DNA of 64,000 nt, taken from contig JADNRV010000233.1 in the NCBI GenBank assembly GCA_015499995.1, positions 1-64,000 of the forward strand. Reading direction: 5' to 3'. This document shows positions 3,876 to 51,843 of the stretch, piece by piece. This DNA is from Flammula alnicola (Eukaryota; Basidiomycota; Agaricomycetes; Agaricales; Strophariaceae). The notes below the pieces were generated by a model, which saw only the letters and a program-made list of their open reading frames with translations, did no database searches and was not told where the DNA came from. A program made the translations under genes and the position numbers. Position 1 is the first letter of the stretch; every line of letters begins with the position of its first letter.

Positions 3876-3889
3876 GGGTCAGGCTATTA

Positions 3890-15582: not shown

Positions 15583-18500
15583 ATAATAGCCTGACCCTGA
15601 CCGACGTACTGTGTCGTTCAGGTCGTGAGGCAGCAAGGGCCTTTTGGACATCAAAGAGGGAGACGAAATATCGCAGTTGGTTATATAGCGGCGTGTCAGA
15701 ATACTGATAATATTCAAGTTTGATGTCAGCTACCACAATCCTGTGCAAAGAAGAAGTTGTTTACCTCAAATGTAACTTTGCCTTTGCATCCTGATCGAAG
15801 GCATCTTCGGCCATAAACGCCCATCATACGTGTGCGATTGTCGCAAGTCGGGTCGTCACACACGGTCCAACCTTCATATTATTTGGCAATGAAGTCTCGT
15901 ATTTGGGCTTCTAGTTGCGTTTGTAGGCTTCCTGCGCTTATGGTTTTGGAGCACGCAGGGTAGAAGGTTTGCCTGAAAAACTGAAATTAAAGATATGATC
16001 AGGGAAATGGAGAGATATCATACCTCCGGATGATCCAGAGGGAGGAAATTTAGTCGACCTTGACAGTGGCGGCGTCGAACGAAAAATGGAACTGCGTCAC
16101 GGAACCTCTCGGCATCAGAAATTTGAGAATCAAGGCCAGAGAACATTCGTTCATCTCCAGTAGAAGTTCGATAACGCATTGGATCCAAGCCTATGTACCA
16201 TTAGAATAGTTATACTTCTCGAGATGAAGCTATTAACACACCAAGACCCTCAGCCAATCGCGCTCTATCAGTTCCTTCAATACGTTCGCAAAGACGCTCG
16301 ATTGGGCGGAGGACCTGATGTAAGAGGTAGTGCTCATAATCTAGATGCATCGTCAGAAACGCAGAGAGATAACTGGAGAGATTTGCTTACCGATCTTAAG
16401 AGCTGACCCCGCCTCGCGGAATTCATCAAGATGTCTAGCCCGATCTGCCTGAGCTGATTTCGCTCTTTCTTGACCTTCAGAGAGACAAAAGATGTAAGGA
16501 ATGACATCTCCAGTCTTTGCCGAACCACCACGCTGCTTCATACGTAGGGCTACCTGAACGTGGGGTTGGCTTTTCGCATCGGGGTAGTCTTCCGGATTTT
16601 TGGCAAGACGCTTGGGAGTAGCACGAACGACTGTGGAGAAATATTTCGTACTTTGAAGATAACAAACTCGTCCAGTTTGATTGACCCCTTTCGTCCGTTC
16701 TTGCCAATTGTTGAGAGATATTCATGAATGTTTTCGACAACATTCTCCGTCGCTTCTCCAGACAAGATTTGGCTCAAAACATACCTAAGAAATGCTAAGT
16801 AAGTGAGGAAAACGAGTGTTGCTATTGACGTACTGTGAAACTTGTTTCGATAGAAAGCGCAATATTCTCTCCGTTTCATGTCCAGACCTTTGATTTCCGT
16901 GCTTGTCCTCGTCCCATCATCCACTTTGATAGCGGCGGATTTCTTTTTCTGAAGTAATAGAAGTCGCTGGAAGACGCCGTCCAGATCAATTTCGAGTAAC
17001 TTGTATCGATCGTTGACGGCTTGCTTGAATGTGGCTGAGATCTTCAGTGCTTCAGCCAGGTCTGTCACGTTTGAATTCACGAATCCGGAGTTGGTATCAC
17101 CATACACAACCTGGACGAGATGACAAAATTAGGAAATGTTGTTAAACGATGAAGAAGATAATTTACGTCAAGGTTCAGGCTTTCCGCCAGTTCTCTGGTG
17201 TGTGTGTCAAGATCTCTCGTCCCTTGTAGGTCGTAAGAGCGGCGAGCGGTCTGGCATAGAACCTTGAATATTTAAATCCAAGACATCCATACATACTGTC
17301 GGCAGTAAGCTTCAGAGCTTGTTGCTTGATGTCATACTGCCAAAAAAATTTATCGTCAGGAAAATAAGGCGCAGGAAGTGCCATGGTTAATCACCTGCAG
17401 CAGCTGTGCCTGAGTAGACGTCCGGTCTTTCATCAATTTTTTCACCTCACGTCTGCGGTTAACGAGTGTTGCGATTAGGCGCGGAAGGGTGTCTTGGCCA
17501 ATATCCGATGAGGGTGGTTCCGGTATCCGCTCATTACCACTCTGTTGACGAATGAGTACGATCACAGCATCAACTACGGCAATGCTTACATCATCATCAT
17601 CTACTGGTTCAACAGTGGTGAAATCAATGTTGTATTCTTGAATGATGCTGGGATATAGCGAATTGAAGTCCATGACTGGGATGTACTTGTCTCATAACCC
17701 TCGCTTCGGTTCGAATACCTTGTATTTGTCTCGTTTCGCTTTCGTGGTCTTCCCTCCTTGCTCGTCATCTTCTTGGGGTTCTGCTTTGGATGTCTTCTTT
17801 CCATATGTTTTGTCAGGGCAGACGTATATCAGGCGATGAATATATTTGTTCCGTTCGGAACGACCACCATTCAGCGTCTTATTTCTGTGAAAAAAACGTA
17901 GGCTTCGAAAATAAAATAGTATCGTCGAGAATGTCTTACCAGGAGTTACCAGCAAGATTGGTAAGTATCTTGTCAGAGGTGGAATCTGGACCTTGGCCGC
18001 GATTGCCATCTGAAAGTGGTCATCGAGCTCGCAGTGTCGAACGAACTTGAGCATCGGTTCCGGCGACGTCACACTGCCTTCCATCTTGCTTGCAGTATCA
18101 TCCGGATCGTAATCTTCGCGTTCTATATCCACATGGGTCTTGCACATCTCAGTCATCGACCATGTCGTCGAGGAAATCATACTCTGAGTATATATGGTTA
18201 ACCATTGCTTTTAATTTTCGGTAATCGTGGCGCACCTTAGCCCCGTCACTGGCAAGGTCACAGAGCAAACGACCATCCAAAAACTTCAGGTTGGACCTTG
18301 GACCCTTGCTTTCCGATATGAGACCACTTAGAACGCCTAAACCGGCCTAATCGCGACCAATGGTCGGCTTTGAGATCTCGCATGCGGTTGAGGAGGACGT
18401 CAAGCGAGACGCCTAAGAAATCGTGGCCGACGATTATATATGAAAGAGAACCACCAGCATAGTTGATCCATTCTTGGAGCATGCATCGCTCGCGAGGATT

Positions 18501-19472
18501 TGAGTATGTTAGCATGAGAACATCCTAGTTTTGAGCTGGGTTTTAGGCCAAGTAAGTCAGCAAACATGAAGAAAAAAGTCGCATGACGAACTTGAGTTTG
18601 ACATCCGCCAAGCTGCTGATACATCCTTTGGAGATGGTAAGTTGGACTCGCATTGCAAAGCAAAGCACAATTGCAAAGCACAAAGTGATCTGATCCATTC
18701 GTATACCCTGCAGAAAGCGGTTAAGCACTGCTGGCCAAAAAAGGGGTTTCGAAATCCCTGATACGGGCTTGAGATGCACATGGAGAGCACGTTCAGATAT
18801 GCCGGCCTGCGATGGTGTTGCTTAGAGTGGAAATGTTTTTCGTAGTATTGCGAAAAGCTTTCTTACAAGTGCGCCGGCCAACATGTTCACCTGGATGTGT
18901 TAACAAAGTTAATCGTAGGTGCCGGACTCGCTGACACGTCCATCCTTGATAAAGTAGCTGTGAAACAGACGTCATCAAACGTGTTAGAGAAAGGCCCCAG
19001 CAAACGCTGGCAAAAAAAGAAACACAACATACATTCAGTCGGCATTCTGGTTAGTCGACAATCGATGCGCAATAGCGATCGTTGTCCTGCCCTTCGCGGC
19101 TGCACAACCTTTTCAGAATTCGAATCCAACGCAGACGTCGCCTGAATGAGAGCCGTCAGTAGCTACCTTATCCTGTCGCCTTCAGATTATGTATCTCGTC
19201 TAGCAGCAGCACCTTAGAGTTCCGCAGCAAAGCACGCGCAATGGCAATACGTTCTAGCAAGAACCATCGCAATCAGACAGACCCTCGATGAAATGATAAG
19301 CTGCAACTCACGTTTTTGTCCGCCAGACAGTTGCGAGCCCTTGCCACCGACTTCAGTGTCGAAGCCACTGCAGAAAAAAGTGGTTTAGGATCTATACTTT
19401 CAATGAAACGGCGACCGACGTACTGAGGCAATCCCTAGATAAATTCGAAAATGTTTGCATTTCGGCAAGCAT
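14061..19472. repeat. Inverted repeat 1, right arm (part of copy C)
   Basis: Partner of 1-5411 in reverse orientation. Its 3' half (15246-19472) is also the inner part of the second inverted repeat with 42526-51843, and its whole length belongs to the direct repeat with 52564-64000. This stretch is therefore present four times in the window, apart from the outer cyclase part that copy C' lacks. Confidence 0.93.
15598..18512 (-). pseudogene. POL1: DNA polymerase alpha catalytic subunit, fragment, copy C
   Basis: Same content and defects as 960-3875, in reverse: the TGA before DKYI is at 17692-17694 and the Asn in YGDTNS at 17090-17092. YGDTNSGFVNSNVTDLAEAL and KLLEIDLDGVFQRLLLLQKK read openly from 17107. 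Differences from copy A are mainly homopolymer indels and rare substitutions. Confidence 0.9.
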
Positions 19473-22139
19473 CTTCAATCTCCTCTAGCGTGACCTCGGA
19501 TTCTGGTTTGATCACGCCCAGAAAAATGTTGAATTGCACAGTGCCAGCATAAAGGGTTGGTTCCTGAGAATGTTTGCGGCATTCCCGTATATTAAGAGCG
19601 GTGATACGTTCGCCGTCCAGCTGGAAAGAGAGAAGGGGTTCAGTTTCCGCACCATACACGGCAATATGAATCACATACGTATATTATTTCTCCATGAAGG
19701 GGTTCATAGAACCGTTCGATCAATTGAATGCTGGCGGAAAAGAGGTGGTCAGCATCTGGCACCGCAACGACGGACATATGATACTCACGTTGTACTCTTG
19801 CCCAACCCACTGGCGCCAACCAAGGCGAACGGGATACCGGAAATGAATGTTCTCGAAACGGATACGAGCCCGGACAGTCTTTTCGGCCACCACTTTACCG
19901 TCGGTCGATTCGGCGTCAATCTCCGGTCGGGAATCAAGCAATTTGATGATATCTGAACCAGCACCCTTCGCTGATGAGATATCGGGCACGAAAGAGAACA
20001 CGTTGCCAGCCTGGATGGCACCGAAAATCTGGCTCTGGAAACAATAAACGTGAGGACATGAAATCCTATAAGAAGATGGAAGATGGATACCATGAGACCA
20101 ATGAAAAACTGGAAAGTGGAAGCCTCTTGACGCGAGACAAGCATGGCTCCGAACCAGAAAATGAGGGCGATGACGAAGAAGGTGAGCGGTTGCGAGAACG
20201 TGTAAAGCATGTTGCTCCAGATAGCGGTCCCCGTTCGACTTGCTCCTCAGACGAATCAGATACACTTCCGGCATCGCCTTCTCCGTGTGCGCTGTCTTTG
20301 CCTTCACACAGTTTCTGAGCATGGGCGAGTCGGGCATAGGCGCCATCACGCTGGAGGAGGTCGTTGTGACTCCCAGATTCGAGAACCTGACCTTCACCCA
20401 TGACGTAGATGACATCAATGACCTTGATGGTCGAGAGACGATGCACGATCATAATAGTGGTGCGGCCTAAAAATAGTCACCACTGGCAAAATAAAATAAA
20501 AACATAAAGATTTACCGGCAGCAGCTTTATCCAATGCATCCTTTACGATTCCTTCCGATTGCATGTCCAAAGCGCTTGTGGACTCGGATCGTAGAATCAT
20601 TCAACTAGAGAGACAATTGTAGACTTTCCAGAACCTGAAGTGCCGGCCAATGCAGCGGTCTTGCCAGCATGGAAAGTAATGTCGCGTCCTTTGACAACTT
20701 GGACAGTGGGCCGAGAAGGATAGCTGAATTTGACATCTTCCAGAGTGATTTCACCCTCAACGTTGTCAATCCTTCAGGATTAGCCGAGTCGATGTCGAGA
20801 ACGAGGACAATCCTGTCATAGAGCTTGGCGGCAGCACCACGACCGTGAGTGATTGCAGAATTGCCAAGAAAACGTTTATAACGGAACTAGGAGTTGCTAC
20901 ATACGAAAGGAGGCGAACCTGAGATCTCGTAAAGTCTAGAAAGGATGATATTGCTTACCGTGACCGCTGTTGAGGAGAGTGGTACAAAAGCTGAAAACTG
21001 TTGAGTCGTGTGAGATAAAGGTCGGATGCGTTAACAAGGAGGACAACCATACCAAGTCCATATGCGGACAAAGAAGGACATTGCCAAACCTCCGCCATGC
21101 CGGATGGCAGCCTTCATGTCCACTTCTTGAGATTTGTCGATGCTTTGATTATAGAGCTGGCTCAAAATCATCTGAATTCCGAAGGCCTGAGCAGTGCGAA
21201 TGGTTGAGATGACCTCCTCTGCCAGACTTACATCTTCGGCGACATATTTGAGAAACATTCTGAATGCCGTTAGCCCAATAACGCTGAGAACCCTGGAGAA
21301 CTACGCACTGCATATATGTTGAGATAAATTTGTTCATAATACCACCAGCAATGGCCATAACTGGGAGCATAGCGGACATTGCAAGCGCCAAGCGCCAAGA
21401 ACGTGCATATGGGAGAGCGAACCGGTGACAAAGGCACCAATAAAGTGGACTGCAAGGGCAACCTTTTCCGAAATTCCTCGTTGCACCAAATCTGCATGAT
21501 GCCAAGATGAGCCATCGTAAACAAGCGGGTCACTAGAATTCGGACGTACATGTATCTGTCTGTATACGCGTTCAAGCGACCTCTCCAGCGCCGACATTGT
21601 CGAAGAATGCAATATCCTGACGCAGAACGGCTTGAAGATAGCGTTCTCGAATGCGTTTCGCATCAACTTCACCAGGATACACCCAAATATACATGGTCGT
21701 GTATGTGCAAACGAACATTCCGACACCTATCAAAGGTTAACTTTAGAAACATTGATGGTCATGTGGTCGGACGTACCAATCCACACCAGGTAAGTTGCGC
21801 TCTTGCCAGCAGAATGTCGGAAATTCGCACCTGCCTCTGGTATTTCACTTGACGTAGCCGGGTTGGCGACAATCGACGAAGTCTTGCGTTAGGTGTGCAC
21901 GTGCATTTCGACGTCCAAAAAGAAGTGACATGAGAGGCTAATAGCGACCAAGGTAAGTGACTGTGAAATCAAAGAAAATCAAAAGTCCATACCTGCGCGG
22001 CTCCCGCTGCCGCTGCTGCTACCAGCCCAATGGAATCAATGAAGAGTTCGAATTTTGTGGAGTAGCTGTTGGGTCAGTCGCATCGAGATCTTGCTGCTTC
22101 AGCTTGAGATTAAGGATCTCTAGCGGGTCATGCGGCTGC
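18884..22139 (-). pseudogene. ABC (MDR/ABCB-type) transporter, near full-length but deleted, copy C
   Basis: Contains, in order, TMD1 (IGLVAAAAAGAAQ, YIWVYTGEVDAKRIRERYL, VLRQDIAFFDNVGAGEV, SEKVALAVHFIGAFVTGS) and NBD1 with Walker A GTSGSGKST. TMD2 pieces follow (YTFSQPLTFFVIALIFWFGA, QSQIFGAIQAGNVFSFVPDI), then NBD2 (FENIHFRYP, VGASGLGKSTT, LSGGQK). Between Walker A and the NBD1 D-loop (STSALDMQSEG) roughly 100 codons, including signature and Walker B, are missing. The start of TMD2 is also gone, and NBD2 lost a stretch just before Walker A. A full ABCB exporter is about 1300 residues. Introns remain. It is the mirror image of 44945-48200. Confidence 0.88.
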
Positions 22140-22143
22140 TGTC

Positions 22144-23134
22144 AGTAAATTTGTGGGACGTGGCGCGAGTCGTCGGCGCGTTTGGCTTCGAGGACGCGGA
22201 TTTTGGCTCGCAGTTCTTGGAGTTATGTGTCGTCGTGTGGGAGAGCTGGAGCGGAAACTGGGACTGGGGTAGGCTAAGATAGGTCACAGTCGGACGGCGT
22301 ATTCCGTCAATTTAAAAAAGGAGGAGAAGATAGACACGATGGAGGTCGAGGACTGTGTTGTTGGGTAGCAGACTGCAATGGTGGTTGACTCAGGGGAGAT
22401 GAAGTCCGTTTAACGCCAAAGGTATTTGAGGACATGGACTGCGACATGGACTGCATTTCGACGGGCGATGTTCTTCCATTGCGAATTATGGATGTTGGAG
22501 AGACAGGAGTGTCTTGCGAGGGAGATTGGCGGGCGACGAAGGATTTACGCGGTTGTAGTGAGGTTGAGGGTTTTGTAGGGGATGGAGGTCCACGAATAGA
22601 GACAGAACGCGCAAGGGATGGCGGGGAAATTGATGTAGTTGATGGCTTTGCGGGGCTTGCGGATCGTGTCGAGGCATTCGATACATTGGAAGACGATGGG
22701 CCTTTGATGGAATTGGCGCATGACAGTCCGCTCGTCCTGGGCGTGCCTTGGTGGCCACGGTCGAGAGATGACGTTGGCGGGCGAATGGAGACGGTCAGCA
22801 GCAGTGAGTAGCATTCGACAACCTCCTCGACAGTCTGTTCGGTTGGGTGCGTCTTCTTCAGATAGCGAGGACCTGCTGAACCGGCGGGGGCGACATCGTC
22901 AACGCAGGTGCTGAGGACGAGTATTGAAATGAGATGAGGCAGAGAGCGATGGCAAGCCATTTGATACCAGAGTTTCCTTTACAGGGCCGCTATTCCGATT
23001 CTGAGCTGGTGTTGCCAGATTCCAGTGGAGGAGCCATGGCTGGAGGAACGGGAAGGCGAGGAGATGGGGGCGTGAGGTATGAATTTCTCGTCGGTGATAC
23101 AGGTCTCTCAGTGACCTCCTCAGGCCGGTTACTG
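22144..23134 (-). pseudogene. Ser/Pro-rich linker plus coiled-coil start, dynactin p150/CLIP-like fragment, copy C
   Basis: The frame 22960-22307 (-) is rich in Ser, Pro and Thr (SASPAKPSTTSISPPSLARS, RGPPSPTKPSTSLQPRKS). About 120 bp further on lies LQELRAKIRVLEAKRADDSR, a coiled-coil start typical of fungal dynactin p150/CLIP microtubule-binding proteins. No CAP-Gly domain is present, so the identification rests on low-complexity and coil sequence only. Several stops interrupt it. It sits between the Helitron fragment and the ABC fragment, on the same strand. Confidence 0.45.
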
Positions 23135-23227
23135 GGAAGAAAACAACACACGGTGAACGTTGGGGTAAAAGGAGGGGAAGATGAACGAGGTGGTCAATGT
23201 AGACCCTTAAGCTTCAGCGCTCAGCGT

Positions 23228-24141
23228 TCATTCGTCACGGCGTGTTCTTGCTCGTTGTAGGGTGTTGAAAGCGAACCAAGGAAATCTTCGATGTTGGGCA
23301 AACCGTCCGCCTCGGAAGCACAGCAGATGTTGAAAGTATTGTCCAAGCTCGACCTTGCGTAATCGCGCTTGATGGAAATCCCCCAGTGCCCCGTTGGGAA
23401 ATAGAGTCGGAAATGCCATCGTCATGTAACCAGGAGTTGATTCTGAAAGAGGCTGTGAATCAAAGTGGGGTGCGCTGATCTACAGACGAATTGTTCATTT
23501 TTTATTGGTCACAAATTCACATTGCACTCACAATTATCTGCTCATAGGGCTTCCAGTGGCAACCGCCTTGCCTCAAAAGTTCAATTTCTGGATGCTCTTC
23601 CTTCCCGATATCGACAACGCCTCCGATAAATTGATCATCCTCGTTTTCACTTCAGCAGCGGCATCTGGTCCTGGCATCGCGGCACCCCCATCCTCACTAC
23701 TTTCACGGCAGTTGGGAACCTCATCGTCGGCCGCAGCACCCTCGTAATAATTCGTCAAGGTAGCAGCTTGTTCTTGAGCTAGTGTGGCAGCCGCCGTCCG
23801 CCCCTGATGACGTGTGAGGCATGCACGGCAGGTAGCTCGGATCTTTCCACCGTCGGCTTGACATTCCTCAATAGATAACTGATGCCTTCCAGTCTCACAC
23901 CGCACGCCTGAGGTCACGACAAAAACATGTCGATGCGATAGAGGTGGCAAAAAGAGAATAATTGGTCACGCATTTTGATTCGGCTTGCAATTGGGTACGT
24001 TTTTGGTGAGTGCGCGTCATGGCTTTTCCCGCCAATCTTTTCAAGTCTTGTAGAGTGCGCTGCTGTTGTCTCCCATTCTAAATCGTTTCTTCTTAATTTT
24101 ATTGCTGATCTTTCCGACTTTTGACAAGGGGTATATGACAC
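23228..24141 (-). pseudogene. Helitron Rep/helicase-like N-terminal fragment, copy C
   Basis: The block at 23425-23228 reads TMAFPTLFPNGALGDFHQAR, KVELGQYFQHLLCFRGGRFA and FPWFAFNTLQRARTRR. This is the opening of the Helitron helicase-like (PF14214-type) domain of rolling-circle transposases. Upstream, 23950-23573 encodes a Cys/His-containing segment (EECQADGGKIRATCRACLTR) also seen at the N-terminus of fungal Helitron proteins. The Rep nuclease motif and the PIF1 helicase are absent, so it is only a remnant. All downstream gene fragments lie on its strand. Confidence 0.78.
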
Positions 24142-24558
24142 GGTAAGGTTATCAGACAGAGGGACAATTTGTACAACCGAGGCGCGACGCGCGCTGGGTC
24201 CCCCAGAACTGCATTTCTAAATGTGCGAGCTCTCTACGGCTCAAACAGTACAAAAAACCACAATGGTATTCAGAATCCCCAAAAAATGTGATGATTGCGC
24301 CCTCAATAGTAATAATATACAGTAATGGCACCATTAAGATATAACGGCGAAAAACAGGGTACCAGTTGCAAGAACAAGGCCAGAGTGCTCTTCTTAGGAA
24401 GGACATTTGGCTTTGTTTGTCCGCCCTGCTCAGCCCTTAGAGAATGATTGCTCGCTTCACTCGCCATAAATCGCTTGGGCTTGGGAAGAGAGGTGTGACT
24501 GATGTAATAAGCGAGCAGTTCGGACAGTGTGAACACTCGGACGGTGTGGAGGGGTAGT
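24142..24558. repeat. Terminal segment of the large repeat with subterminal hairpin
   Basis: Non-coding edge of the arm. A short hairpin AGTGT-GA-ACACT lies at about 24525-24536, followed about 20 nt later by the conserved terminal motif (24538-24554) and TAGT, where homology to the other arm ends. A hairpin shortly before the terminus is reminiscent of Helitron 3' ends, although CTRR is not exact (GTAG). The mirror copy is 42526-42942. Confidence 0.55.
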
Positions 24559-24799
24559 AAACTCGAAATTAAGGACAACAAATGCACGAATACGTTCAGA
24601 GGAGCTCAGATATGAGGATCAACAAGGCGGAAATACCAGATTCAGGGTTCCCCGGAGGATGAGTCGCACTCGCATTGTCCCAGTGAGGCGGAATATTCGT
24701 TTCAGTCATTTTTTGTATAGGTGTAGGAGGTCCAAATATTAAATGAATTAAATCCACAGGTAACTCATCACATACCACGCACCTCATAGCGTACTAGGC

Positions 24800-25400
24800 C
24801 GAGGTCCGGGCTGTATATGAGGATGCGAGCATCTCTCGAGTATAAGTGTCGCACGGTGTCGCCTTCATATACGGTAATAGCGTACGATACACTTCATCGC
24901 ACCATCGCGTACCTCATCACGTACCATCACGCACCTCATCACGTACCACCATAATGTCCGGTCGGAGTATTCTTCGGGATAATTGAACGGAGATATGATG
25001 GCCAGAGAATGGGCGGAAAATATAGCGATGTATTCCTGAGAGCCTTGAGCATGATCCAACAGCAACAACTGTTTGCCTTACCAAGCAAACATATCATTTT
25101 TTCCAACACTATGTTCTAATCCCCAAGGAATTACATTCTGTAACCCAAATTCGCGAAGATATTCTCTATTCCGGGGTTTATTTCACTAAGGATAAAACGT
25201 TCTCGGGGATGTTTTGCGACATTTGGTAAATTCAAAATTCATCAACAAATTTGATTCAATTTTTAACGAAATTTCAAGACCGCTGAGGGATTTTCTCACA
25301 TTGGCATACGGGCTCAAAGGTATCCGGGAATTTCTGAGACTGCAGTTTCAAAAGGGTTTTCGTATATTTTACTATTGCAACACAAGAAATCCGGCCCAAA
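24800..25400 (-). repeat. Interspersed repeat R1, reverse copy
   Basis: Reverse-complement match to 8200-8770, including the CCGACCGGACATTATGG core (about 24953-24970) and tandem GTACGTGATGAGGT units (24880-24955). More diverged from 8120-8890 than 52801-53570 is. Confidence 0.6.
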
Positions 25401-27469
25401 TGTGGTCGGAGGAGGCAACGACTAGCCGAGTTAAGCAGGGCCGTACCAGACTTCTATGTGGCTGATGTCGGTATTTGAAAATCTTGAAACATGACCAAAT
25501 AGAAAATTTTGAACCTTTCTCTCTCACCTCATGGTCCCTACGCCATCTCGCCTCTGTTATCCATGGCCGCGGTATCATAAGGGTTAAGTTAGGTGTCATG
25601 CCTGAAAACCCGAGGTTGGACTGCGACACGGAGTATGCTGAGTTAAGGGCATTGGGCTACCTCAAATCCCAGCCGTGGTCGTCGGCCTGAATATCTTGAA
25701 ACAGCAGATAGATGATGCGCTAGGTAAGTATTTTATGAACACTGCACGCTCTCTCAACAATTAATTTCTGCTACTTTGAATAGCGCACAATCTCGATAAC
25801 CAGCACTGACGTACAGTCATGCAAGAGATGACCGGGAGCGGATACGATGATCGAGTTATGCGGGCCGTCATGCACATGGCACACCTCTACGTCGTCATAC
25901 CCAACGACTTACCTGCTCATACCGTTGCGCATATACCGCCATCCGACCTACCGGATTGCCCCGGGTTTTCTGCCAACAGGAGCAAGATATCGCGTCTGCA
26001 TGCTCCCGACCAACTCCGTCCCCTATTAGTATCATACGTGGCTGAAGGATGCGGATCGTTGGACGAAATTTGGACAGATTCGATTTAAACGACCGCATGA
26101 ATTTCCTTGGTGGGAACCAAATGGACCGCTCTTCCCTTCTTCTATTGTTCCGCGGTGGCACACTCGTCGTTACGGGCCCGGAGTACACACTCGAACTACG
26201 GTCGTGCTTCAGAACTTATTTGGGTTTTCGAGCACCCTCCAAAGTTCACGAGGGAGTCGGCCCTCGCGCGAATGGCGCCGAAAACATCAGGCACGTAACT
26301 TAGGATCGCAGCACCCTCTACGACCTTGCGCGATGACCTTCGGACCACTTCGAACCCTACACTCTCGTCGACTGTGAGGACGCACCTATTTAATGCCCTG
26401 TTACTCAGACTCCGCCCTGGCCTATCCTCCATCTGCAACCACAACACTCTGATCATTTGTTGGGCCGTCTTTGTATGACCATTCAGTGACAACGGCCGCG
26501 AGGGGAAGATGGCGTGCAATTCTAACACTCAACGCCTACATCGACTTCTCGACGTCGCTGTCTCTTCATCTACCTTCCTTTTTCGCTACCACCGCAGAGA
26601 CTAGACCGTCATCAATGTATAGGGAGGGTCAGCAACATATGAGAAGTTCAAAGTATGTGGCGACTTCTAGAAGGCTAGCCTTGCTCTATTCTGAGATGGG
26701 GGCGACTAGTTTACACCCGCATCGAAGCTTCAACTGCCATTTATCTCAGAATGTTCATATAGTCCTTTCGGGAATGCATTTCCATGCGATTTTCTGCGAT
26801 ACTACAGAACGGCCTTTAACACGTGAGTGAGCTTTTTCGAGGACACCGTACGCAGGGATGGAGAGGATTAACTGTGATGCATCGCAAGTAAAGCATACCG
26901 AGTCAATGTTCATGTTCTAAAACAAGGCGGAAATATCACTTGCACTGGATTACTGGAAATCTTCCGACATCAGGGAGGCAACTGAGAAGAGAGTGGGCTG
27001 ATATCGTCATCTTCCAAGTACATTTCATAATTCCCACCATTCCCGCCCTTCTCGCCTTATATCACGAGTTATGGGCTTGCTTTTAGTATGACCTTCTTCT
27101 GTTCCACTGTCTACAATTCCCATATTCAGGTAGGTCGCTCGGACAGTAACTACTGAGACGAATGTGAATTCCCTATTTTATTTCGTTGTGACGGCTATGC
27201 CGACACTTCCTGGGCTTGAGGTTGATTCCTCATCTTCGTCCGGAAATAGGTATACCTGCTTTATCGATGAAACGAATAGCCCCCTGATGGGCTGGTGGCG
27301 GAGGTGTATTTTGTCTCTTTCTACGCTTGGACCGAAGTATTTTGGCAATTCAATGCATACAATGGCCTCTATCATGATTGGAACTGTGGCCATCTTTTTA
27401 TTCTTTAAAAAATATTATTTTAATCGGCGGCTCGTCGCTCTCAATTTACTTAACTAATGCTGAAGGCTC
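25401..27469. other. Unassigned unique region
   Basis: About 2 kb flanked by R1 copies in opposite orientation. Open frames of up to about 120 codons occur (25819-26088, 26471-26830, 27164-27457), but none shows a motif I recognise. The stretch around 26060-26200 (KFGQIRFKRPHEFPWWEPNG in one frame) looks more protein-like than the rest and may be a decayed gene. Confidence 0.35.
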
Positions 27470-27720
27470 TCAGGAATATATCACGGAAGTTTGTATCCTG
27501 CTATATGTTCCACTCATTCTCTGGACATAATACCTCCCTTCAATTATGCTGAAAAATACTCCGACCGGACATTATGGAGGTACACGGCGGTACGTGATGA
27601 GGTGCTTGATGGTACGTGATGAGGTACGCCGTGGTACGTGATGATGTGCGTGGTGGTACGCTATTACCGTATGTGACGGCGAAGTCCTGCCATACTTATA
27701 CTCGACAAATGTATATCGGG
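27470..27720 (+). repeat. Interspersed repeat R1, partial forward copy
   Basis: Contains CTCCGACCGGACATTATGG (27557-27575) and several GGTACGTGATGAGGT-type units (27590-27660). It faces the reverse copy at 24800-25400. Confidence 0.6.
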
Positions 27721-27856
27721 CGAATTTCTATGTAGTATGAGTACATAGTATCAACCAATACAAGGATTTGACACGGTGAAACGTTGAAAAACAAATTTCC
27801 GCAGAAAGGTAGGCTTCCAATCTGTATTTAACATGCATCTCTATAACCAACTGTTT

Positions 27857-30800
27857 CTACTGGTCGAAATTATGTAAAATGTTGTTCAATAACCAAATGG
27901 CCAGCTCCACACCATTGCAGAATGAGTCCTCCTCCTCCTGCGTGTACCAAATCGCATACTCCGCGACATCCATATTTTCCTTTAGCTTGAATGCCGCCAC
28001 CGCCTTGTGCCACCACGGAGGCGTCTCCCGCACGAACCAAGCAATCAACACCACAAAGTCCGCAAAGTTGCATGCCGATCCTCCCGTACCTCGACGATGC
28101 GCCGTAGGGCAGAATTCATGTTCGATTGGTAGATGACAATAGAAGCAATACTTATTCTCTTCCGTGAAGTGGATAGTCTTCTTAAAAGTGATCCATGAAG
28201 AGACGTTTGGGATATAGTTCCTATTCTGGCAGGTCCTCCACAGGCGATCCGGGTGCGGAGCAGAGAGGCGCTTCTGGAAGCACCAGCAAATGACGCAACT
28301 TCCCTGGAGAAGACTCGTTTGTTCGTTCAACGACTTCAACTTTCCCAGCTTTTTTCCCTTCGCCGCAAGAAACCTGGTGGAGTCGACGAGAACATTAACC
28401 GACCGATCGGCAGAAGGAGGTGGCAGCCCGCCAGATTGAATGATTGGAGGGGTGTAATTGACGACAGAGCTTGGGGGGGAAATATTGCGTAACAGAGGTC
28501 CGATAGAATGCATATTCGGAGGAGTTCTGTTGAGGAGTGGGCCTTGAGAAGTTCTCAAATCTTTGTCGAGTACCAATGTAGATGATGGGGTCGTTATAGA
28601 TGAGTCAGAAAATTTATGGCCTCCATCACTTTTGGAAGACTGGGAAATTTGTCCACCACGGACCAGTTCGCGTATGGCCGAGACGACGTCGGAATTTATG
28701 TCGCAAACGTCACAACGGTGCGAATCATGAACATCTGCACAGGTGACATCGTTTCCATCCAGCATGCGTGAAAACCCCAATCGCCGACATTGGCGTTCGG
28801 AAACCCATCTTATGCCTTCTGCCTCGCATTTGAAGTCGAGTTCAAGGGAAGGGGGGGTTTTCTCTATTTTTCCACTGATTACGATAGCCCATGAAGGCCG
28901 TCCATCTCGACCTCCTCTGCCTGAACCCTGGTAAACGTTTATCAGGCCGTAGGGAATTCCGACAAATATAACCGCTCCGACATTGAGAACGTCTATTCCT
29001 TCTATGAGACCGGTAGTTGCAGCAATCCACCGAGGTTTATCTGTCCCCAGTTTCCAATTTTTTTCATGAGACGATCTCAGACGAGGTTCGAGACTTGAAT
29101 GGGAGATGCCGCAGCCAAAAATTTCGCCAATCTTCTCAACCGACGCTATGTCCTGGCAGAAGATGATTCCCTTCTGATCATGACACAGGAAATCCTTGTC
29201 CATCTTCTTCGCAATATCAATTGCAAGGTGGATCTGATTTTTCTGACCGGGGTCCACTACGTGGTAGCTGACCTGCACCTGAGTTGAAGGAGCTCGTATA
29301 ATTGGCGTGTCGCTGGGAAGGCCGTAAGCCTCCAATAATTTGGATTCCGTTCTCTTGACGAGCGTGGCAGTCAGAAGGATTGTCTGGCCTACTAACCCCA
29401 CCATACTCTTCAGATTGCGAAATTGAGGCCTGAAGGCGGCTTGGTGAATTCCATGGGCCTCATCAACGACCTTTCGTAGCGCGGTATTTTTATGGCTTTC
29501 CCATAAGCTACACATTGGGTCAATATTTATTTTTTCATGTAGAAATCGATGAATGGTATCTTACCTCCTGAAGGCCTGAGATCCAGCGGTCTCCATTGCA
29601 ACAAAGACGAGCCGTGTATCATCTGGGACATCCGGATCACCGGAGCACCAATGTACGGCTTTCAGACCAAGTCTCTGAGCCCTCTCCATATGATCGTCGA
29701 GAAGAGCCTTGTTGGGAACGACAATGTAGGACTGGTAGCCAACCTCGTGGAAAGCAGCTAGAGTAAATACGAGGCTTTTTCCACCGCCAGTGGGAAGAAC
29801 TGCCACAAAGCTTTGTTTATTGGCTATCGCCATTTGTACCGCTTGATACTGCTCCTCTGACTTGAATTTTGGGCACTCTATGGTGGGAAAATGGAGCTGC
29901 AGAAGTTGCAGAAGATTTTTCCGGTCAATGGTCCTGGTACGGACATTATGCATGCCTACTTGTAGCTTGTCACCGGACCCAGCGTTATTACGGAAAGCTC
30001 CAGAGATGGTTTTCTCTGAGGGTTCAGCGACGCGGTACAAGTCCTCGTAGGTGGGCTGGTTCTCATCTATCAAATCCCGATCGTCATTTGGAGGAAAATC
30101 AGTTGGCCTTGCGTTGGGCAGAGTCCAGGATTCTTTGTCCACTGTCGCGGATGCTATGCCTGGTTTGTAACGATGCGACAAGTTGCCGTCGACAACCAGC
30201 TCAGCCAGAGCCTCCTTCACTGCCTCTTTGATTCCCACTTTGCCATTTTGTATCTCATGAGTGAGCGTGGATACGACGTTCTGCATGAGCTCCTGAAAGT
30301 CAATTCTAGAGTTAGAGGCTGATGAATGGATGGATTCGGCATTGTTCGTGCCCAGGATTTGACAGGCTGAAAATTCCAGTTTCTCCCTGAGACGTTGCCT
30401 AGTCCGGAGAGGAAGAATAGGCGCAACTCCTGCGGGAAGACCGACTCCATGGACGCCTTGAAACTTCTCCGATGCCCGTCCATACCTAATGAGAAGCTCG
30501 CTGGACAGGCCTGGCAGACGTCCATATTCCGAGGCATACTTGAGGCGCGACATTCGTGCGGAGTGACCAGCCTGCGTTGCCAGTACATCGAGCTCCTCCT
30601 CATCCACCTCCATTTCTGATCCTAGGAATATGCGGGTAACCTCTACTGCTATCTGTCGATACACTTTCACTCCGGCCTTGACGTCCAGAGTGATCCCGCA
30701 GTAATTGCGGAGGAAGTCGGGTATCAAAGATCGCATGTGGTCTACGTCCATAGGCTTAAGGTGCTTGATCCAGAGGTACTCTCTGCAGCGATGGAAGGCC

Positions 30801-33800
30801 TCTTCTCCACGAAGATGAAAAGCGAGTTGAGCGTGAAGAGGTCGCAAAATCACAAGGAATGTAAGAAGCATCTCGTTGAGAAGGGAATAGCATTTGGCCG
30901 GCCGGAAATCTTCTCTTCCTTCAAGATTCTCGGTCTTTGAACGTCGGATAACGAGCCAAAGGATATGACCATCCATAAAGACGCTGCGAGGACGCGTTGA
31001 GTTACGAATTTTATGCTCCACAAACTCGGTGATTCGAGGAGTCTGTCCGGCTGTGAAAAACACAAGCAACGCCAGTTTTTCTCCTAAGGACTCCAATTTG
31101 TGGACAACCTCCCACATTCCCGCTGTATTTATCTCCCATTGACCACTAGGAGATATTGAGAGTAACTTGCAGTCCGGCTGTTCCATCATAGCCTTGAGAA
31201 GACATCCGTCGTATTTGACGACTTCGGGATGATTGAGCCAGCTGTACCCCCGCGTTTGATTTGTCCAGTCATCCGGGACCAAGTCGGGGATTTTGAGGCC
31301 AAAGTCCTGGTTGAGGCAAATTTCATGCATAGCCTCCTTTGCCTCCGCAGCAAGCTTGGCGAGGCCGGCCCTCCATAAAGCGACTTTGAGGGTGGTCTCC
31401 TTGTACGTGATTGTCATGCCATCCTCGCTGACACGTGTGTCTGGAGGCGACTTGCTGTTCAAGGCGATCCAGTTGGCGTATCTTGTATAATTTAAGCAGG
31501 AGTTGAATGTGGAGAGGACGCCAGGGTGTAGGTTCTGAATTGCCTCCTCTTCTACAGATCTGTGTGCGGATAATAGTTCAATGAAGCCTGACCACATACA
31601 AGTTGGAGTTGATCTTACTGGAGAATATCTATCTTAAGTCGTTGGGCTTTAAGTATTGCTTCGTGAAAAATGGTTCCGCGAATGAAGTATTTTAGCTGTG
31701 CAAGAAGCTGGGTTACCCTATTTGCGGGGCGAAATACAGCTTTATCCTCCAAGCAATATAGCGCTATCAAGCAGTCTATCACATTGGTGAATCTATCCGC
31801 ACCCTGAGTGTGCCTGCGATAGAATATCGGTTTCATGAGAGCATGAAGTGCCGGAACGCCGTCACTACTGCGATCTTTCAGAATATTATCGAGATCGGCT
31901 GCCGCCTTCTTGTCTTCAGGTGTGAGAGGAAGCGAGTATCCGGATGGGTGATCGCCCTTGTAGGTGTTCAACACCGCAAGGACTAGATGGACGAAGACCG
32001 TGGCGTACTTCTTCAAGGTCTCACCATCGACAGGCACCCAAAAATCCCCTTTGGGAGTAACCCTAGGCATATGCCATCGTCAGTTAAAGGGAAGGAGAGA
32101 TAGGGATTTATCCTACCTCGGACACTCCATTAGGAGCATTAGAAGCTCTATCCGGGCGGGACGTGCAATGTCGACGATATCCTTCAAGTATTGAAGAACA
32201 ATTGAGGTAAGCCTCTCCACCAATTCACTCCCTTCACGACCTAGCGGCAGTTCTATCACAGAGCGTAATGTACGAACAGCTTGGTTTGTACCAAGGTGCT
32301 GCTTAAGGTGTTCGCGCCATTGGAATGTGCGTACCATGGGTGGGTCCTCTTGCACAGTGAGGGGTGCGGTAACCATTCCATTGACGTCCGGTTTTGGTGC
32401 TAATTGCCTAAGATAGAAGGCGTATTTATCCCCAGGAGCAACATGAGAGAGTGATGGATAGACGCGGAAGTACTTGCCCTGACCCTTGAACACCCGCTGT
32501 GCGTGGCAAGGAGAAACGTCATTCCATTCAATCAAATTTCCATCGGCCTTGTGTTCGGTTATGTGCTTCTTCATAGTGCTCTCGCAGGCCGCGACATAGG
32601 AGCATGGACAATAGTAAGCTGCTATAATTGCGATGCCGTCGATGGGTCTGCAATCAGGATTCGGATTTCCTTTCACATCCTGAGGACTCCAAGCCAGATC
32701 CGTATTTAGAATGAAATCCTCTATCGCTCTGGATGCTGTATGAGTAGTGATGATACCGTGTTCCTTGGCATGGGAGACAAAATTTTTCTTGCCGCATACA
32801 GCCTCACATCTCGTGCAAGCCAGAACGCATGGCTTGTTTTCCGCTCCGTCTAAAGAAATAAGCCGGAGCCCTGCCTGGTGCAAGACTTTGGTCATGTCGT
32901 CGGCTATGAAAGGACTTTTGTCAACTTCTGCGGGGATATTACCGCCAGTAGATGGCGCCTTGGGTCCTCCAAAGGACGAGGAAGCCCCTTCGTTGCAGTC
33001 AGGTGGATCATTTTGTACAGGCCAGTCTGTAACTTGAAGTGACCTGTCAGATGAAGGCAATGCGATGTTGGGTTCATGGGTTTCTTCTGCGGCAGAGATA
33101 CCATCAATGTCCATAAAACCATCATAGGGTAAAACGTCGTTGGGAGATTCGCGACCGCTCGACTCCTTAGAAAGTAACCTTGCGGACGAAGGGAAGATGT
33201 GTGCGGAATGTGTGGATTCTTTGTTGCCAGGGATCTCATTAAGGTCAGGTGAGCTAAGCGTCTGCGTGAATTGAGGAAGAAGCGATGCGGGGGTCTGGCT
33301 GCATGATGCCTCAGGCAATGATGATCGTCTCTTTGGAGAGGGGCAAGGCTTCAGGTATGGTGAATTCCGGCTACGTATTTTCCTATCTGAGGGTCTGCGA
33401 CAGGGCACAGAAGATGAAGAGTGTCTTCCGGTTGAATTTACCAAATTATTGACCTGACTCTCATGAGAGAGGGCTACGCTTTGGCCAGTATTTTGACCTA
33501 GGTCGAAGTGGAACGATTCATCAGAAGTGAAAATGTCGGATTCCGTTGGTGTGGGAGTGAAAGGGACGGTGTATGACGAATTTGGGGTGGGGTATGGCAT
33601 TGCCTGGCGTCGTTGAAGACCCTGAGGTTTTTGGCGATTGGGACCACTGCTAGGCGAGAGGGGTCTTGATAACGGAAGACTGGGTTCTTCAAACCCTGGC
33701 GATGAAACAGGAGGACCGATGGAAGTTTCTTCATTCCTGAGGTGGGTACCCAATATATTATAGCTGAAGTGACATTTCCGTGCATGATTTGTGAGAGTTA

Positions 33801-34098
33801 GACCGTTTTTGCTCGTCCATGATACACATTGGCTGCATTGTAATAACCCATCATGGCGTCGATATGACGTTGCTAGAAGTTGATTCGTATCTTAATTGAC
33901 ACAATCCTAAGTTAATGTGCCCACATTACGGTGATGGTGGACTCACGCGCATTATAAATGTACCATTTCTCCGAATGCTCCTGGTTCTTATGAGCAGAGA
34001 GGTTAGCCGAGGAAGAGCTGCATATGTTGCATTTTGATCTGAACCAACAGTCAGATTTGCACAATACCTGTATAAATTTACAAGACTGACCGAACCAT
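27857..34098 (-). CDS. OrsD-type zinc finger / tyrosine recombinase-like / RecQ-type helicase fusion protein, 1987 aa
   Basis: Six exons (34098-34091, 34038-33947, 33890-32117, 32062-31619, 31559-29565, 29507-27857), with five GT..AG introns of 52-59 nt, give an uninterrupted 5964-nt frame. Residues 6-24 (CNICSSSSANLSAHKNQEH) and 52-73 (CSQC..H..C) are zinc fingers. About 90-360 is a Ser/Pro-rich linker. 392-411 (CTRC..H..H) and about 461-480 are OrsD (PF12013)-type fingers. 940-1115 resembles a tyrosine-recombinase core: TAGQTPRITEF (Arg948), a Lys in RRSKTEN (981), YRQIAVE (Arg1074), and GHSARMSRLKYA (His1105, Tyr1114). A RecQ-like helicase follows: VLPTGGGKSLVF (Walker A, Lys1367), VDEAHG (1453), LLTATL, and QGSGRGGRDGR (motif VI, 1631). 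The tail has Cys/His clusters (HRCDVC, CVICWC, YCFYCHLP). Nuclear DNA unwinding or telomere/transposon functions are inferred; telomere-linked helicases of fungi have a related helicase and tail. It is the only clearly intact large gene. Confidence 0.88.
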
Positions 34099-34566: not shown

Positions 34567-35844
34567 GATATTTCTGAAACATGGGTATGTTTAAGCGGCC
34601 TTTTCGGAAGGCAGACGGCAAAAACTTGCATTTACGTGACCGGTAAGGAACCAACCGCGCATCTGGTTGCGCAATCTCCGTCCGGCGTCGGCATCCAATA
34701 GTTGTTGTAGTACAATACGGCTATAAGACATGTACATACCGGCTGCCTTGTAGTAGAAGCTCTGAATTCCTCTTCTGTTGGAAAGTGTGAAATATATATG
34801 TAGCCTTCTGTGAATCTCTATATTCTCTAAGCGGCCGGAGATACTTCATAACGTGGGGTGGGATAGTTAATTATAATTGCCGGAAACCCAGATCAGGGAA
34901 TAGAATTACCTAATCTGTAGGACTGTGAGAAGCTAGGCAGTCTGAATTACTTACACAATGTAATCAGCCAAAATCAATTTCATTTCGTTTCAAACAACTT
35001 GCCGCGCATTTGTCGTGTTTATGGTCCAGCTACTAGTCACCGCTGTGGCCATTACCTCGCCGGTGCATCGTGGATAAGGAGAGCAGGTAATTTTTCTGTC
35101 ACATTTTAAAGTCACGTACTCCGCCTGAAGTGAAGGTAAAATATTCTAACTACCTGCCGTCACATTTTGATCCACCGTCAAAATATTCCGGCTGCAACAG
35201 TGACTAGCGTAATACCTTGTGGCGTCCCTTAGTCATCTTTTCTCGAGACGGTGGGAACCTGAGACCCTTGTTGTGTGAAAGTTACTATGTAGTAGTATGT
35301 AAGATATGTAGATGAGACGACTCGGCTGTAAAGTCTTCATGCAGCCGTGAAATAACCTCACAAAGGATAGTCCAGGAGACCGTATTGAGTGACAGGTGGG
35401 GAAAAGAGAAAAGTAAAATAATTGCTGGAGGATAAAATCTATGAATCTTTATTTAGGCCGACGTTTTTCATGTAAACGCACTGTATGAAAAGGCAGGAGA
35501 ATGGAGAATGAAGACGGAAAAACATCACATGAGAACATGAAAGCATAGAACATTTAGGGCCTATTTGTGTCGCCCTTTTTCTGTGGCTTTTTTACTGACC
35601 CCGGCCAAATGACGGTTTGGATGGGGGTTTTGTCTGTGGAAACCAATTGACCAGGAAAATGAAGCTGGGCCCGGGGTAGCATTTGGTTGCAGCCAATTTC
35701 GGGTTTCTATGTCATTCATGCTGTAACTCGTCGTAACACTGCGTCTTTTCCCTCCCACAACATGTTAACCCACCACCGCCGCTCGTTTTTCCACACTCAT
35801 TTATAATTCCTATCTATTACTTCGTAAAATGTTTCTCTTAGTGT
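34567..35844. other. Region without recognised genes
   Basis: AT-rich sequence with no convincing reading frame or repeat structure. The frame at 35561-35758 (-) has no recognisable domain. Confidence 0.4.
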
Positions 35845-42525: not shown

Positions 42526-42942
42526 ACTACCCCTCCACACCGTCCGAGTGTTCACACTGTCCGAACTGCTCGCTTATTACATCAGTCACACCTCTCTTCC
42601 CAAGCCCAAGCGATTTATGGCGAGTGAAGCGAGCAATCATTCTCTAAGGGCTGAGCAGGGCGGACAAACAAAGCCAAATGTCCTTCCTAAGAAGAGCACT
42701 CTGGCCTTGTTCTTGCAACTGGTACCCTGTTTTTCGCCGTTATATCTTAATGGTGCCATTACTGTATATTATTACTATTGAGGGCGCAATCATCACATTT
42801 TTTGGGGATTCTGAATACCATTGTGGTTTTTTGTACTGTTTGAGCCGTAGAGAGCTCGCACATTTAGAAATGCAGTTCTGGGGGACCCAGCGCGCGTCGC
42901 GCCTCGGTTGTACAAATTGTCCCTCTGTCTGATAACCTTACC
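42526..42942. repeat. Terminal segment of the large repeat, mirror copy
   Basis: Mirror image of 24142-24558. The terminal motif is at 42530-42546 and the hairpin GTGTTCACAC follows. No gene. Confidence 0.55.
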
Positions 42943-43857
42943 GTGTCATATACCCCTTGTCAAAAGTCGGAAAGATCAGCAATAAAATTAAGAAGAAACG
43001 ATTTAGAATGGGAGACAACAGCAGCGCACTCTACAAGACTTGAAAAGATTGGCGGGAAAAGCCATGACGCGCACTCACCAAAAACGTACCCAATTGCAAG
43101 CCGAATCAAAATGCGTGACCAATTATTCTCTTTTTGCCACCTCTATCGCATCGACATGTTTTTGTCGTGACCTCAGGCGTGCGGTGTGAGACTGGAAGGC
43201 ATCAGTTATCTATTGAGGAATGTCAAGCCGACGGTGGAAAGATCCGAGCTACCTGCCGTGCATGCCTCACACGTCATCAGGGGCGGACGGCGGCTGCCAC
43301 ACTAGCTCAAGAACAAGCTGCTACCTTGACGAATTATTACGAGGGTGCTGCGGCCGACGATGAGGTTCCCAACTGCCGTGAAAGTAGTGAGGATGGGGGT
43401 GCCGCGATGCCAGGACCAGATGCCGCTGCTGAAGTGAAAACGAGGATGATCAATTTATCGGAGGCGTTGTCGATATCGGGAAGGAAGAGCATCCAGAAAT
43501 TGAACTTTTGAGGCAAGGCGGTTGCCACTGGAAGCCCTATGAGCAGATAATTGTGAGTGCAATGTGAATTTGTGACCAATAAAAAATGAACAATTCGTCT
43601 GTAGATCAGCGCACCCCACTTTGATTCACAGCCTCTTTCAGAATCAACTCCTGGTTACATGACGATGGCATTTCCGACTCTATTTCCCAACGGGGCACTG
43701 GGGGATTTCCATCAAGCGCGATTACGCAAGGTCGAGCTTGGACAATACTTTCAACATCTGCTGTGCTTCCGAGGCGGACGGTTTGCCCAACATCGAAGAT
43801 TTCCTTGGTTCGCTTTCAACACCCTACAACGAGCAAGAACACGCCGTGACGAATGAA
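42943..43857 (+). pseudogene. Helitron Rep/helicase-like N-terminal fragment, copy C'
   Basis: Mirror copy of 23228-24141 with identical protein blocks; the Helitron helicase-like start TMAFPTLFPNGALGDFHQAR is at about 43662. It lies at the head of the same-strand chain of gene fragments. Confidence 0.78.
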
Positions 43858-43949
43858 CGCTGAGCGCTGAAGCTTAAGGGTCTACATTGACCACCTCGTT
43901 CATCTTCCCCTCCTTTTACCCCAACGTTCACCGTGTGTTGTTTTCTTCC

Positions 43950-44940
43950 CAGTAACCGGCCTGAGGAGGTCACTGAGAGACCTGTATCACCGACGAGAAA
44001 TTCATACCTCACGCCCCCATCTCCTCGCCTTCCCGTTCCTCCAGCCATGGCTCCTCCACTGGAATCTGGCAACACCAGCTCAGAATCGGAATAGCGGCCC
44101 TGTAAAGGAAACTCTGGTATCAAATGGCTTGCCATCGCTCTCTGCCTCATCTCATTTCAATACTCGTCCTCAGCACCTGCGTTGACGATGTCGCCCCCGC
44201 CGGTTCAGCAGGTCCTCGCTATCTGAAGAAGACGCACCCAACCGAACAGACTGTCGAGGAGGTTGTCGAATGCTACTCACTGCTGCTGACCGTCTCCATT
44301 CGCCCGCCAACGTCATCTCTCGACCGTGGCCACCAAGGCACGCCCAGGACGAGCGGACTGTCATGCGCCAATTCCATCAAAGGCCCATCGTCTTCCAATG
44401 TATCGAATGCCTCGACACGATCCGCAAGCCCCGCAAAGCCATCAACTACATCAATTTCCCCGCCATCCCTTGCGCGTTCTGTCTCTATTCGTGGACCTCC
44501 ATCCCCTACAAAACCCTCAACCTCACTACAACCGCGTAAATCCTTCGTCGCCCGCCAATCTCCCTCGCAAGACACTCCTGTCTCTCCAACATCCATAATT
44601 CGCAATGGAAGAACATCGCCCGTCGAAATGCAGTCCATGTCGCAGTCCATGTCCTCAAATACCTTTGGCGTTAAACGGACTTCATCTCCCCTGAGTCAAC
44701 CACCATTGCAGTCTGCTACCCAACAACACAGTCCTCGACCTCCATCGTGTCTATCTTCTCCTCCTTTTTTAAATTGACGGAATACGCCGTCCGACTGTGA
44801 CCTATCTTAGCCTACCCCAGTCCCAGTTTCCGCTCCAGCTCTCCCACACGACGACACATAACTCCAAGAACTGCGAGCCAAAATCCGCGTCCTCGAAGCC
44901 AAACGCGCCGACGACTCGCGCCACGTCCCACAAATTTACT
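43950..44940 (+). pseudogene. Dynactin p150/CLIP-like Ser/Pro-rich fragment, copy C'
   Basis: Mirror copy of 22144-23134. PEEVTERPVSPTRNSYLTPP-like sequence at about 43960-44030 extends the Ser/Pro-rich region upstream. LQELRAKIRVLEAKRADDSR is at about 44860-44920. The stop at about 44938 is followed directly by the ABC N-terminus. Confidence 0.45.
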
Positions 44941-44944
44941 GACA

Positions 44945-47900: not shown

Positions 47901-48200
47901 TGAAGGCGACAGGATAAGGTAGCTACTGACGGCTCTCATTCAGGCGACGTCTGCGTTGGATTCGAATTCTGAAAAGGTTGTGCAGCCGCGAAGGGCAGGA
48001 CAACGATCGCTATTGCGCATCGATTGTCGACTAACCAGAATGCCGACTGAATGTATGTTGTGTTTCTTTTTTTGCCAGCGTTTGCTGGGGCCTTTCTCTA
48101 ACACGTTTGATGACGTCTGTTTCACAGCTACTTTATCAAGGATGGACGTGTCAGCGAGTCCGGCACCTACGATTAACTTTGTTAACACATCCAGGTGAAC
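44945..48200 (+). pseudogene. ABC (MDR/ABCB-type) transporter, near full-length but deleted, copy C'
   Basis: Mirror of 18884-22139. Anchors: NLKLKQQDLDATDPT (about 44970); TMD1 from about 45030; NBD1 Walker A GTSGSGKST at 46439-46465; HRLSTIKVIDVIYVMGEGQV (about 46640); NBD2 Walker A VGASGLGKSTT at about 47268-47298. Signature LSGGQK is at 47754-47771 and Walker B VLLLDE at 47873-47890. It shows the same internal deletions and stops as copy C, for example TAG at 47648-47650. Confidence 0.88.
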
Positions 48201-48569
48201 ATGTTGGCCGGCGCACTTGTAAGAAAGCTTTTCGCAATACTACGAAAAACATTTCCACTCTAAGCAACACCATCGCAGGCCGGCATATCTGAACGTGCTC
48301 TCCATGTGCATCTCAAGCCCGTATCAGGGATTTCGAAACCCCTTTTTTGGCCAGCAGTGCTTAACCGCTTTCTGCAGGGTATACGAATGGATCAGATCAC
48401 TTTGTGCTTTGCAATTGTGCTTTGCTTTGCAATGCGAGTCCAACTTACCATCTCCAAAGGATGTATCAGCAGCTTGGCGGATGTCAAACTCAAGTTCGTC
48501 ATGCGACTTTTTTCTTCATGTTTGCTGACTTACTTGGCCTAAAACCCAGCTCAAAACTAGGATGTTCTC

Positions 48570-51490: not shown

Positions 51491-51505
51491 AGGGTCAGGC
51501 TATTA

Positions 51506-51843
51506 TTATGCATCGCCTGCAAGTTATTTGCGATATCAAGGCCGAGGTGGGTTTGAATTCATGCTGTTCGTCTGTCTCTTCGTGCTTCATGTCGAAATAT
51601 TTTTAGAGAACGAATGCTTGGTCAGAATGAGCGGCCAGCTGCTATTGTCAAGCTAAGGATGGAGCAGGCTGGTTACGTCCTCGAGAACGGCTTGTACTTG
51701 CTTGGTGCGGAAAGCCTAGGCAGCCTGCTTCAATTTGTCTTCAAGAGTCAACTACTAGCTGGGGTGAGCCGTGACATGGTGTCTTCTTTGATCTCGTGAT
51801 AATATATATTTTTCTTTCAAAGGAGCAAATAGATTTCGATAAC
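51506..51843 (+). pseudogene. CYR1: Adenylate cyclase stub, copy C'
   Basis: Only the region before the leucine-rich repeats remains (ERMLGQNERPAAIVK, GLYLLGAESLGSLLQFVFKS). Homology ends after CGATAAC at 51843, 15 codons or so short of the poly-G tract that follows in the other copies. Confidence 0.8.

Follow-up and report, generated by a model that had tools for sequence, protein, structure and literature searches.

RecQ genes in subtelomeric positions are known from many fungi. The available part of the Ustilago study describes UTASb as an OrsD and/or 'core' sequence that occurs either close to telomere repeats or on the 5' side of the RecQ gene UTASa (PMC10532341), and in the accessible sections of the Agaricus bisporus study no domain besides the helicase could be found in the subtelomeric RecQ proteins (PMC7473861). 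For the telomere-linked helicases (TLHs) of Ustilago and for yeast Y', a back-up role upon telomerase loss has been proposed. Here, we describe a gene from Flammula alnicola whose predicted product of 1990 aa combines OrsD-type zinc fingers, a putative tyrosine recombinase (YR) core, a RecQ-type helicase, and a Cys-rich C-terminus. Its six predicted exons lie on the minus strand (27857..34098; all gene features given below are on this strand) of the window, i.e., the analyzed stretch of 64,000 nt, which corresponds to positions 1-64000 of the 73,889-base contig JADNRV010000233.1 (C150) in a genome of 74.4 Mb and 861 contigs. With a probability of roughly two in three, the protein is an Agaricales relative of the telomere-linked RecQ helicases, in which a YR whose active site is complete separates the OrsD fingers from the helicase, and would act as a strand-exchange enzyme at chromosome ends.

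Predicted Tyrosine Recombinase Core

A preliminary description of the locus had noted, between the fingers and the helicase, the order and spacing of residues typical of tyrosine recombinases. The AlphaFold2 model of this region has a YR/type IB topoisomerase fold (30368..31444, model residues 39-397). In a second structural comparison, with VIA-align, such folds ranked first for the models of both the window family and a distant paralogous family; recombinases occupied ranks 1-9 for the former and ranks 1-22 for the latter, for which no topoisomerase was listed. The modeled YR fold is almost certainly genuine. By sequence, the core escaped detection: Pfam gave no YR family between fingers and helicase in any of the seven family members scanned, a PDB profile search gave no recombinase match for this region, and DUF3435 (PF11917) matched neither the window protein nor any of the same seven members. 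DUF3435 was also rejected as a bridge family, since its sole match in the genome is located elsewhere (C46) and falls below the cut-off.

The predicted catalytic residues, assigned by a codon check in the 1990-aa numbering, are Arg I (R951 in TAGQTPR, 31034..31036), a Lys in the beta hairpin (K984 in RRSK, 30935..30937), Arg II (R1077 in VYRQ, 30656..30658), His (H1108 in GHS, 30563..30565), and the nucleophile candidate Tyr (Y1117 in LKYA, 30536..30538). In an alignment of the window protein with 35 homologues, these positions are kept in 36, 36, 35, 36, and 36 of the 36 sequences, respectively, the only deviation being a His in place of Arg II in P0037. K984, H1108, and Y1117 are the sole invariant positions among 21 Lys, 13 His, and 12 Tyr columns. 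The same set is kept in all 33 sequences of the distant family, and the two families sharing this active site are only about a quarter identical; relatives of exon 5 in the same genome show 35-47% identity across most of the YR region. Thus, the Arg/His/Tyr conservation proposed earlier as a check holds and extends to the Lys, and residue conservation together with the fold bears out the YR-like core and rules out a chance motif. The domain is probably catalytically active.

Protein P0086 (1613 aa) contains OrsD and helicase domains and gives no match to the YR profile; by eye, all five active-site residues are recognizable, in order, in the stretch that separates these domains. In addition, a distant match to the last part of the family-B YR region (32% over 115 residues, E 3.2e-5) was found at G000:C12:41801-42145 within a frame of 578 codons.

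Gene Structure and Domain Organization

Scanning five stretches for introns of 35-130 nt gave 16 combinations of GT-AG introns under which no stop interrupts the reading frame between the ATG (34098) and the terminal stop codon (27857). The length of 5964 nt (1987 codons) reported earlier is obtained with two of these combinations, each requiring a single weak donor, either GTCAGT (intron 1) or GTGTCC (intron 3), whereas the most canonical set, preferred here (34081-34039, 33946-33891, 32116-32063, 31618-31560, and 29564-29508), yields 5973 nt and 1990 aa; residue numbers are therefore shifted by +3 relative to the earlier ones. Introns 3, 4, and 5 occur at or near equal protein positions in the paralogues on contigs C28 and C39, as judged from tblastn breaks, and a by-eye comparison places them likewise in the annotated F. 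alnicola protein P0001. Introns 1 and 2 and the start codon were predicted from the window sequence alone, without paralogue support. The gene model has canonical splice sites, and its exon joins are predictions. The fusion itself is independent of splicing, because the YR core and the helicase start sit uninterrupted in one 690-codon open frame (29561..31633) that holds exon 5 (31559..29565). The two parts also occur together in a single protein in 27 of the 71 homologues, and an exon-joining artefact is thereby ruled out. The open gene model and this frame confirm the intact fusion gene claimed in the preliminary description.

The OrsD (PF12013) C2H2-type finger region (32551..32832) was identified by Pfam with an E-value of 8.7e-9. 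The RecQ-type helicase core (28901..29854, interrupted by intron 5) displays a Walker A motif LPTGGGKS, DEAH, TAT, GIDV, and QGSGRGGRDGR; its Pfam matches are DEAD (6.1e-9 within the 690-codon frame alone and 8.6e-16 for the joined sequence) and Helicase_C (9.1e-8), and its best PDB sequence matches are DNA helicases Q1 and Q5 and the Bloom syndrome protein. The SF2 motifs, DEAH, and RecQ-type matches of a RecQ helicase are thus all present, in agreement with the earlier assignment, and an OrsD region and a RecQ-type helicase occur by Pfam in the same protein, the combination expected of a TLH. The Cys-rich C-terminal region (27860..28483) is kept in paralogues and has no Pfam family.

Paralogues at Chromosome Ends

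The gene belongs to a multicopy family with several subtypes within one genome. The copies are not independent, because 7.5 kb compared between C28 and C30 are fully identical, and a stretch of 12.9 kb reaching the telomere is 96.7% identical between C39 and C151. A survey of (TTAGGG)4 in the genome listed 100 of 108 places; among the matches listed, at least 14 contigs carry such an array, in each case at the right end or within 60 bases of it, and C30 and C151 also carry internal TTAGGG arrays. Four of the seven close paralogues (family A: C28, C30, C39, and C151) are located less than 8 kb from a telomere-capped contig end and point toward it, which bears out, for the paralogues, the suggested association with chromosome ends. 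Sixteen loci with a YR core were compared for orientation (the C56 and C201 fragments, the weak C12 match, a relic on C8, and a cut second copy on C150 were left out): 13 face the nearer contig end and three face away, namely both family-B copies and the mid-contig copy on C376. The window itself contains no telomere repeats, and a loose telomere pattern is no more common in it than in shuffled sequences; its copy lies 28 kb away from a contig end that carries no repeats. The end-adjacent, end-directed placement of a TLH was seen for C28, C30, C39, and C151, and the telomere linkage rests on such paralogues because the window copy has no telomere repeat nearby.

Several copies are truncated on their 3' side at telomere repeats or telomere-like sequence. 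On C28 and C30, the gene breaks off within the helicase, where the terminal repeat takes over; on C151, an internal array of six repeats (G000:C151:66483-66518) interrupts the YR-helicase gene at that same base, replacing 56 nt, after which the gene resumes. A type-C copy on C30 is cut within the YR core by a TTAGGG unit, beyond which stands a sequence that follows (TTAGGG)3 on C151. The C412 copy is cut in the C-terminal linker and the C228 copy immediately after the gene; in each case, sequence containing TTAGGGTTA follows. At the position where C228 passes into telomere-like sequence, no telomere sequence is seen in the C127 copy. The simplest reading of the cut copies is chromosome breakage with telomere addition in end-facing genes; for C28 and C30, it is also possible that the contig merely ends inside an internal array. 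The other internal array (G000:C30:136796-136855) is in different, coding-looking DNA. The subtelomeric sequence TAGTGGAGATCC begins directly after telomere units at L023:1298 and L048:4397, like an end-added unit.

A relic on C8 (G000:C8:8122-10366) retains the last 84 codons of the window gene (92%, one stop) and has roughly 2 kb of 3' flank in common with it. Window bases 27443-27735 are missing from the relic; the larger part of them matches a dispersed repeat. The presence of these last 84 residues and of the shared flank led us to reject C8 as an empty site.

Proposed Mechanism and Alternative Explanations

In the proposed strand-exchange enzyme, the zinc fingers would hold the protein on subtelomeric DNA, Y1117 would nick one strand via a 3'-phosphotyrosine and transfer it to a partner duplex, with the RecQ motor opening or migrating the junction. 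Chromosome ends would thereby exchange strands, and the gene and its neighborhood could spread from end to end, like a Y' element with its own recombinase. The chances that the enzyme acts mainly at chromosome ends are about even. What weighs against this interpretation is that Foldseek found no significant match in PDB for either AlphaFold2 model; the structural comparison suggested earlier nonetheless yielded a YR match with VIA-align.

Among the alternatives, a helicase-bearing Crypton-like transposon, whose transposase would excise a circle and insert it by means of the YR with subtelomeres as the preferred target, fares best and is still unlikely. It fits the intact YR active site, the multicopy family with several subtypes in one genome, and the C228 and C127 copies, which have 6.86 kb in common at 98.6% identity with both ends within the flanks compared. 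However, the ends of the type-C blocks vary between the four copies compared: on the 5' side they fall in or beside minisatellites, whereas the 3' ends of C30, C412, and C228 coincide with telomere-like sequence. No short direct repeats flanking these blocks were seen by eye, the stretch common to C39 and C151 is a whole chromosome end rather than an element, and the absence of a match to DUF3435 or another YR profile also speaks against such a transposon. A discrete transposon was considered unlikely, since block ends differ from copy to copy among the type-C blocks compared, and the mapping of genomic copies and their ends proposed in the preliminary description delimited no element. Its suggestion that the protein could mobilize DNA gained no support from element ends, as none of the Crypton or Starship kind was found. 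With no element ends seen, nothing observed here proves that the gene is mobile.

Slightly less probable is a host gene for telomere maintenance, in which the YR would serve as part of a back-up for telomerase loss. In line with this possibility, the available part of the Ustilago study reports that several telomere-linked RecQ/OrsD genes are up in telomerase-negative survivors, one of them in each of the two strains and the rest in a single strain (PMC10532341). The substitution pattern would also suit a host gene: among the window, C28, and C678 copies, pN is 0.35 against pS of 0.76 and 0.80, and between the window and C28 copies the YR region shows 309 nonsynonymous and 198 synonymous changes (pN 0.347, pS 0.755), synonymous sites being saturated. 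Comparisons with C851 gave dN/dS of 0.33-0.40 where computable. These values indicate purifying selection across the family at the sequence level; the recent, near-identical pair C28/C39, with two nonsynonymous and four synonymous changes, differs too little to tell. On the other hand, the copies on C39, C151, and C412 are interrupted by stops, which is typical of selfish subtelomeric DNA, and such helicases are missing from A. bisporus var. bisporus without any evident telomere abnormality, according to the accessible part of that study (PMC7473861).

Close behind in probability, and likewise doubtful, is a type IB-like topoisomerase. The YR-fold domain might nick, swivel, and reseal DNA and, with the RecQ motor, process junctions at chromosome ends rather than recombine specific sites, by analogy with the BLM/Sgs1-topoisomerase III pair and reverse gyrase. 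The recombinases that fill the top structural ranks for both families argue against this possibility, and the zinc fingers suggest a site preference. Finally, a YR relic whose fold is kept only for DNA binding is very improbable: Crypton recombinases have been domesticated into non-catalytic genes, but, as far as the available text of that survey goes, the DUF3504 genes among them lost the catalytic Tyr and the second Arg (PMC3212892), whereas here the five active-site residues are the conserved ones.

If the proposed strand exchange takes place, it would explain the movement of such genes between chromosome ends, and a hidden recombinase active site would offer subtelomeric RecQ genes a concrete, testable activity. 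The coupling of a tyrosine recombinase and a RecQ motor in one protein would also be unusual, and the protein would be a candidate tool. More tentatively, and with the odds against it, the TLHs of Agaricales in general might be helicase-driven recombinases forming a self-spreading chromosome-end system, with the YR cutting and joining subtelomeric or telomeric DNA, and the Ustilago 'core' might be the same enzyme. Should this hold for the 'core' next to OrsD, the finding would be basidiomycete-wide.

Genomic Surroundings

Contig C150 is a mosaic of direct and inverted duplications that are 99.7-99.9% identical. Window positions 12774-29195, which include the 3' part of the gene, recur directly at C150 57475-73889, whereas 15246-24558 and 1-5413 recur inverted at 42526-51843 and 19471-14059, respectively. 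The second copy of the 3' part of the gene (C150 72558-73888) has stops and frame breaks and runs into the contig end. At the four boundaries read by eye (15246/51843/59949, 24558/42526/69262, 5413/14059/58765, and 12774/57475), no common junction sequence was observed. A link between the gene and these duplications was rejected for lack of a shared motif at the boundaries, and the amplification of the flanking chain by the protein, suggested earlier, is unsupported for the same reason.

Eight of the 11 frames of at least 230 codons are other than the gene; they are scattered and by eye represent fragments, so that, together with the duplication mosaic, the earlier picture of decayed surroundings is a fair one. 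At 12829-14055 and 19720-20448, open frames resemble, by eye, pieces of a cyclase/phosphatase gene and of an ABC transporter. Pieces of 34942-35090 recur as close opposite-strand pairs on several contigs, like a palindromic short transposon.

Comparison with Known Systems

Xer, Cre, and lambda integrase resemble the YR described here in fold, in the Arg-Lys-Arg-His-Tyr order, and in the distance of nine residues from His to Tyr; in Cre, W315 and Y324 are likewise nine residues apart. The spacing from Arg II to His is 31 residues here, whereas that from Arg to Trp in Cre is 23. Unlike in these enzymes, the YR is undetectable by sequence and is fused to fingers and a helicase.

Among mobile elements, AcademH and KolobokH also join a mobile-element enzyme to a helicase, but their transposase is a DDE enzyme instead of a YR. 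Both are named as helicase-bearing DNA transposons in the available part of the source (PMC10799480). Cryptons share a eukaryotic YR and a multicopy family organization, but no element ends were found for the copies compared here; the word helicase is absent from the available text of the Crypton survey (PMC3212892). Starship captains share a fungal YR, differing by their DUF3435 match, and Starships have been reported in a basidiomycete, Tremella, in the part of the account available (PMC13066641).

In the open-access literature, as far as its accessible text goes, we found no report of a RecQ or telomere-linked helicase that contains a YR, although automated YR collections could already contain such proteins. 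Likewise, the available portions of the accounts of fungal telomere-linked RecQ helicases name no recombinase domain; the likeness drawn here is one of description rather than of protein comparison. The Pfam scan misses the YR, which may explain why the A. bisporus study saw nothing but a helicase core. The RecQ core, the paralogues at chromosome ends, and the presence of full and truncated copies are common to the F. alnicola family and to Ustilago UTASa/UTASb, the A. bisporus helicases, Magnaporthe TLH1, and Y'. In Ustilago, as far as its available description goes, OrsD is among the sequences placed 5' of the RecQ gene or close to telomere repeats; in F. alnicola, it is inside the same protein as the helicase.
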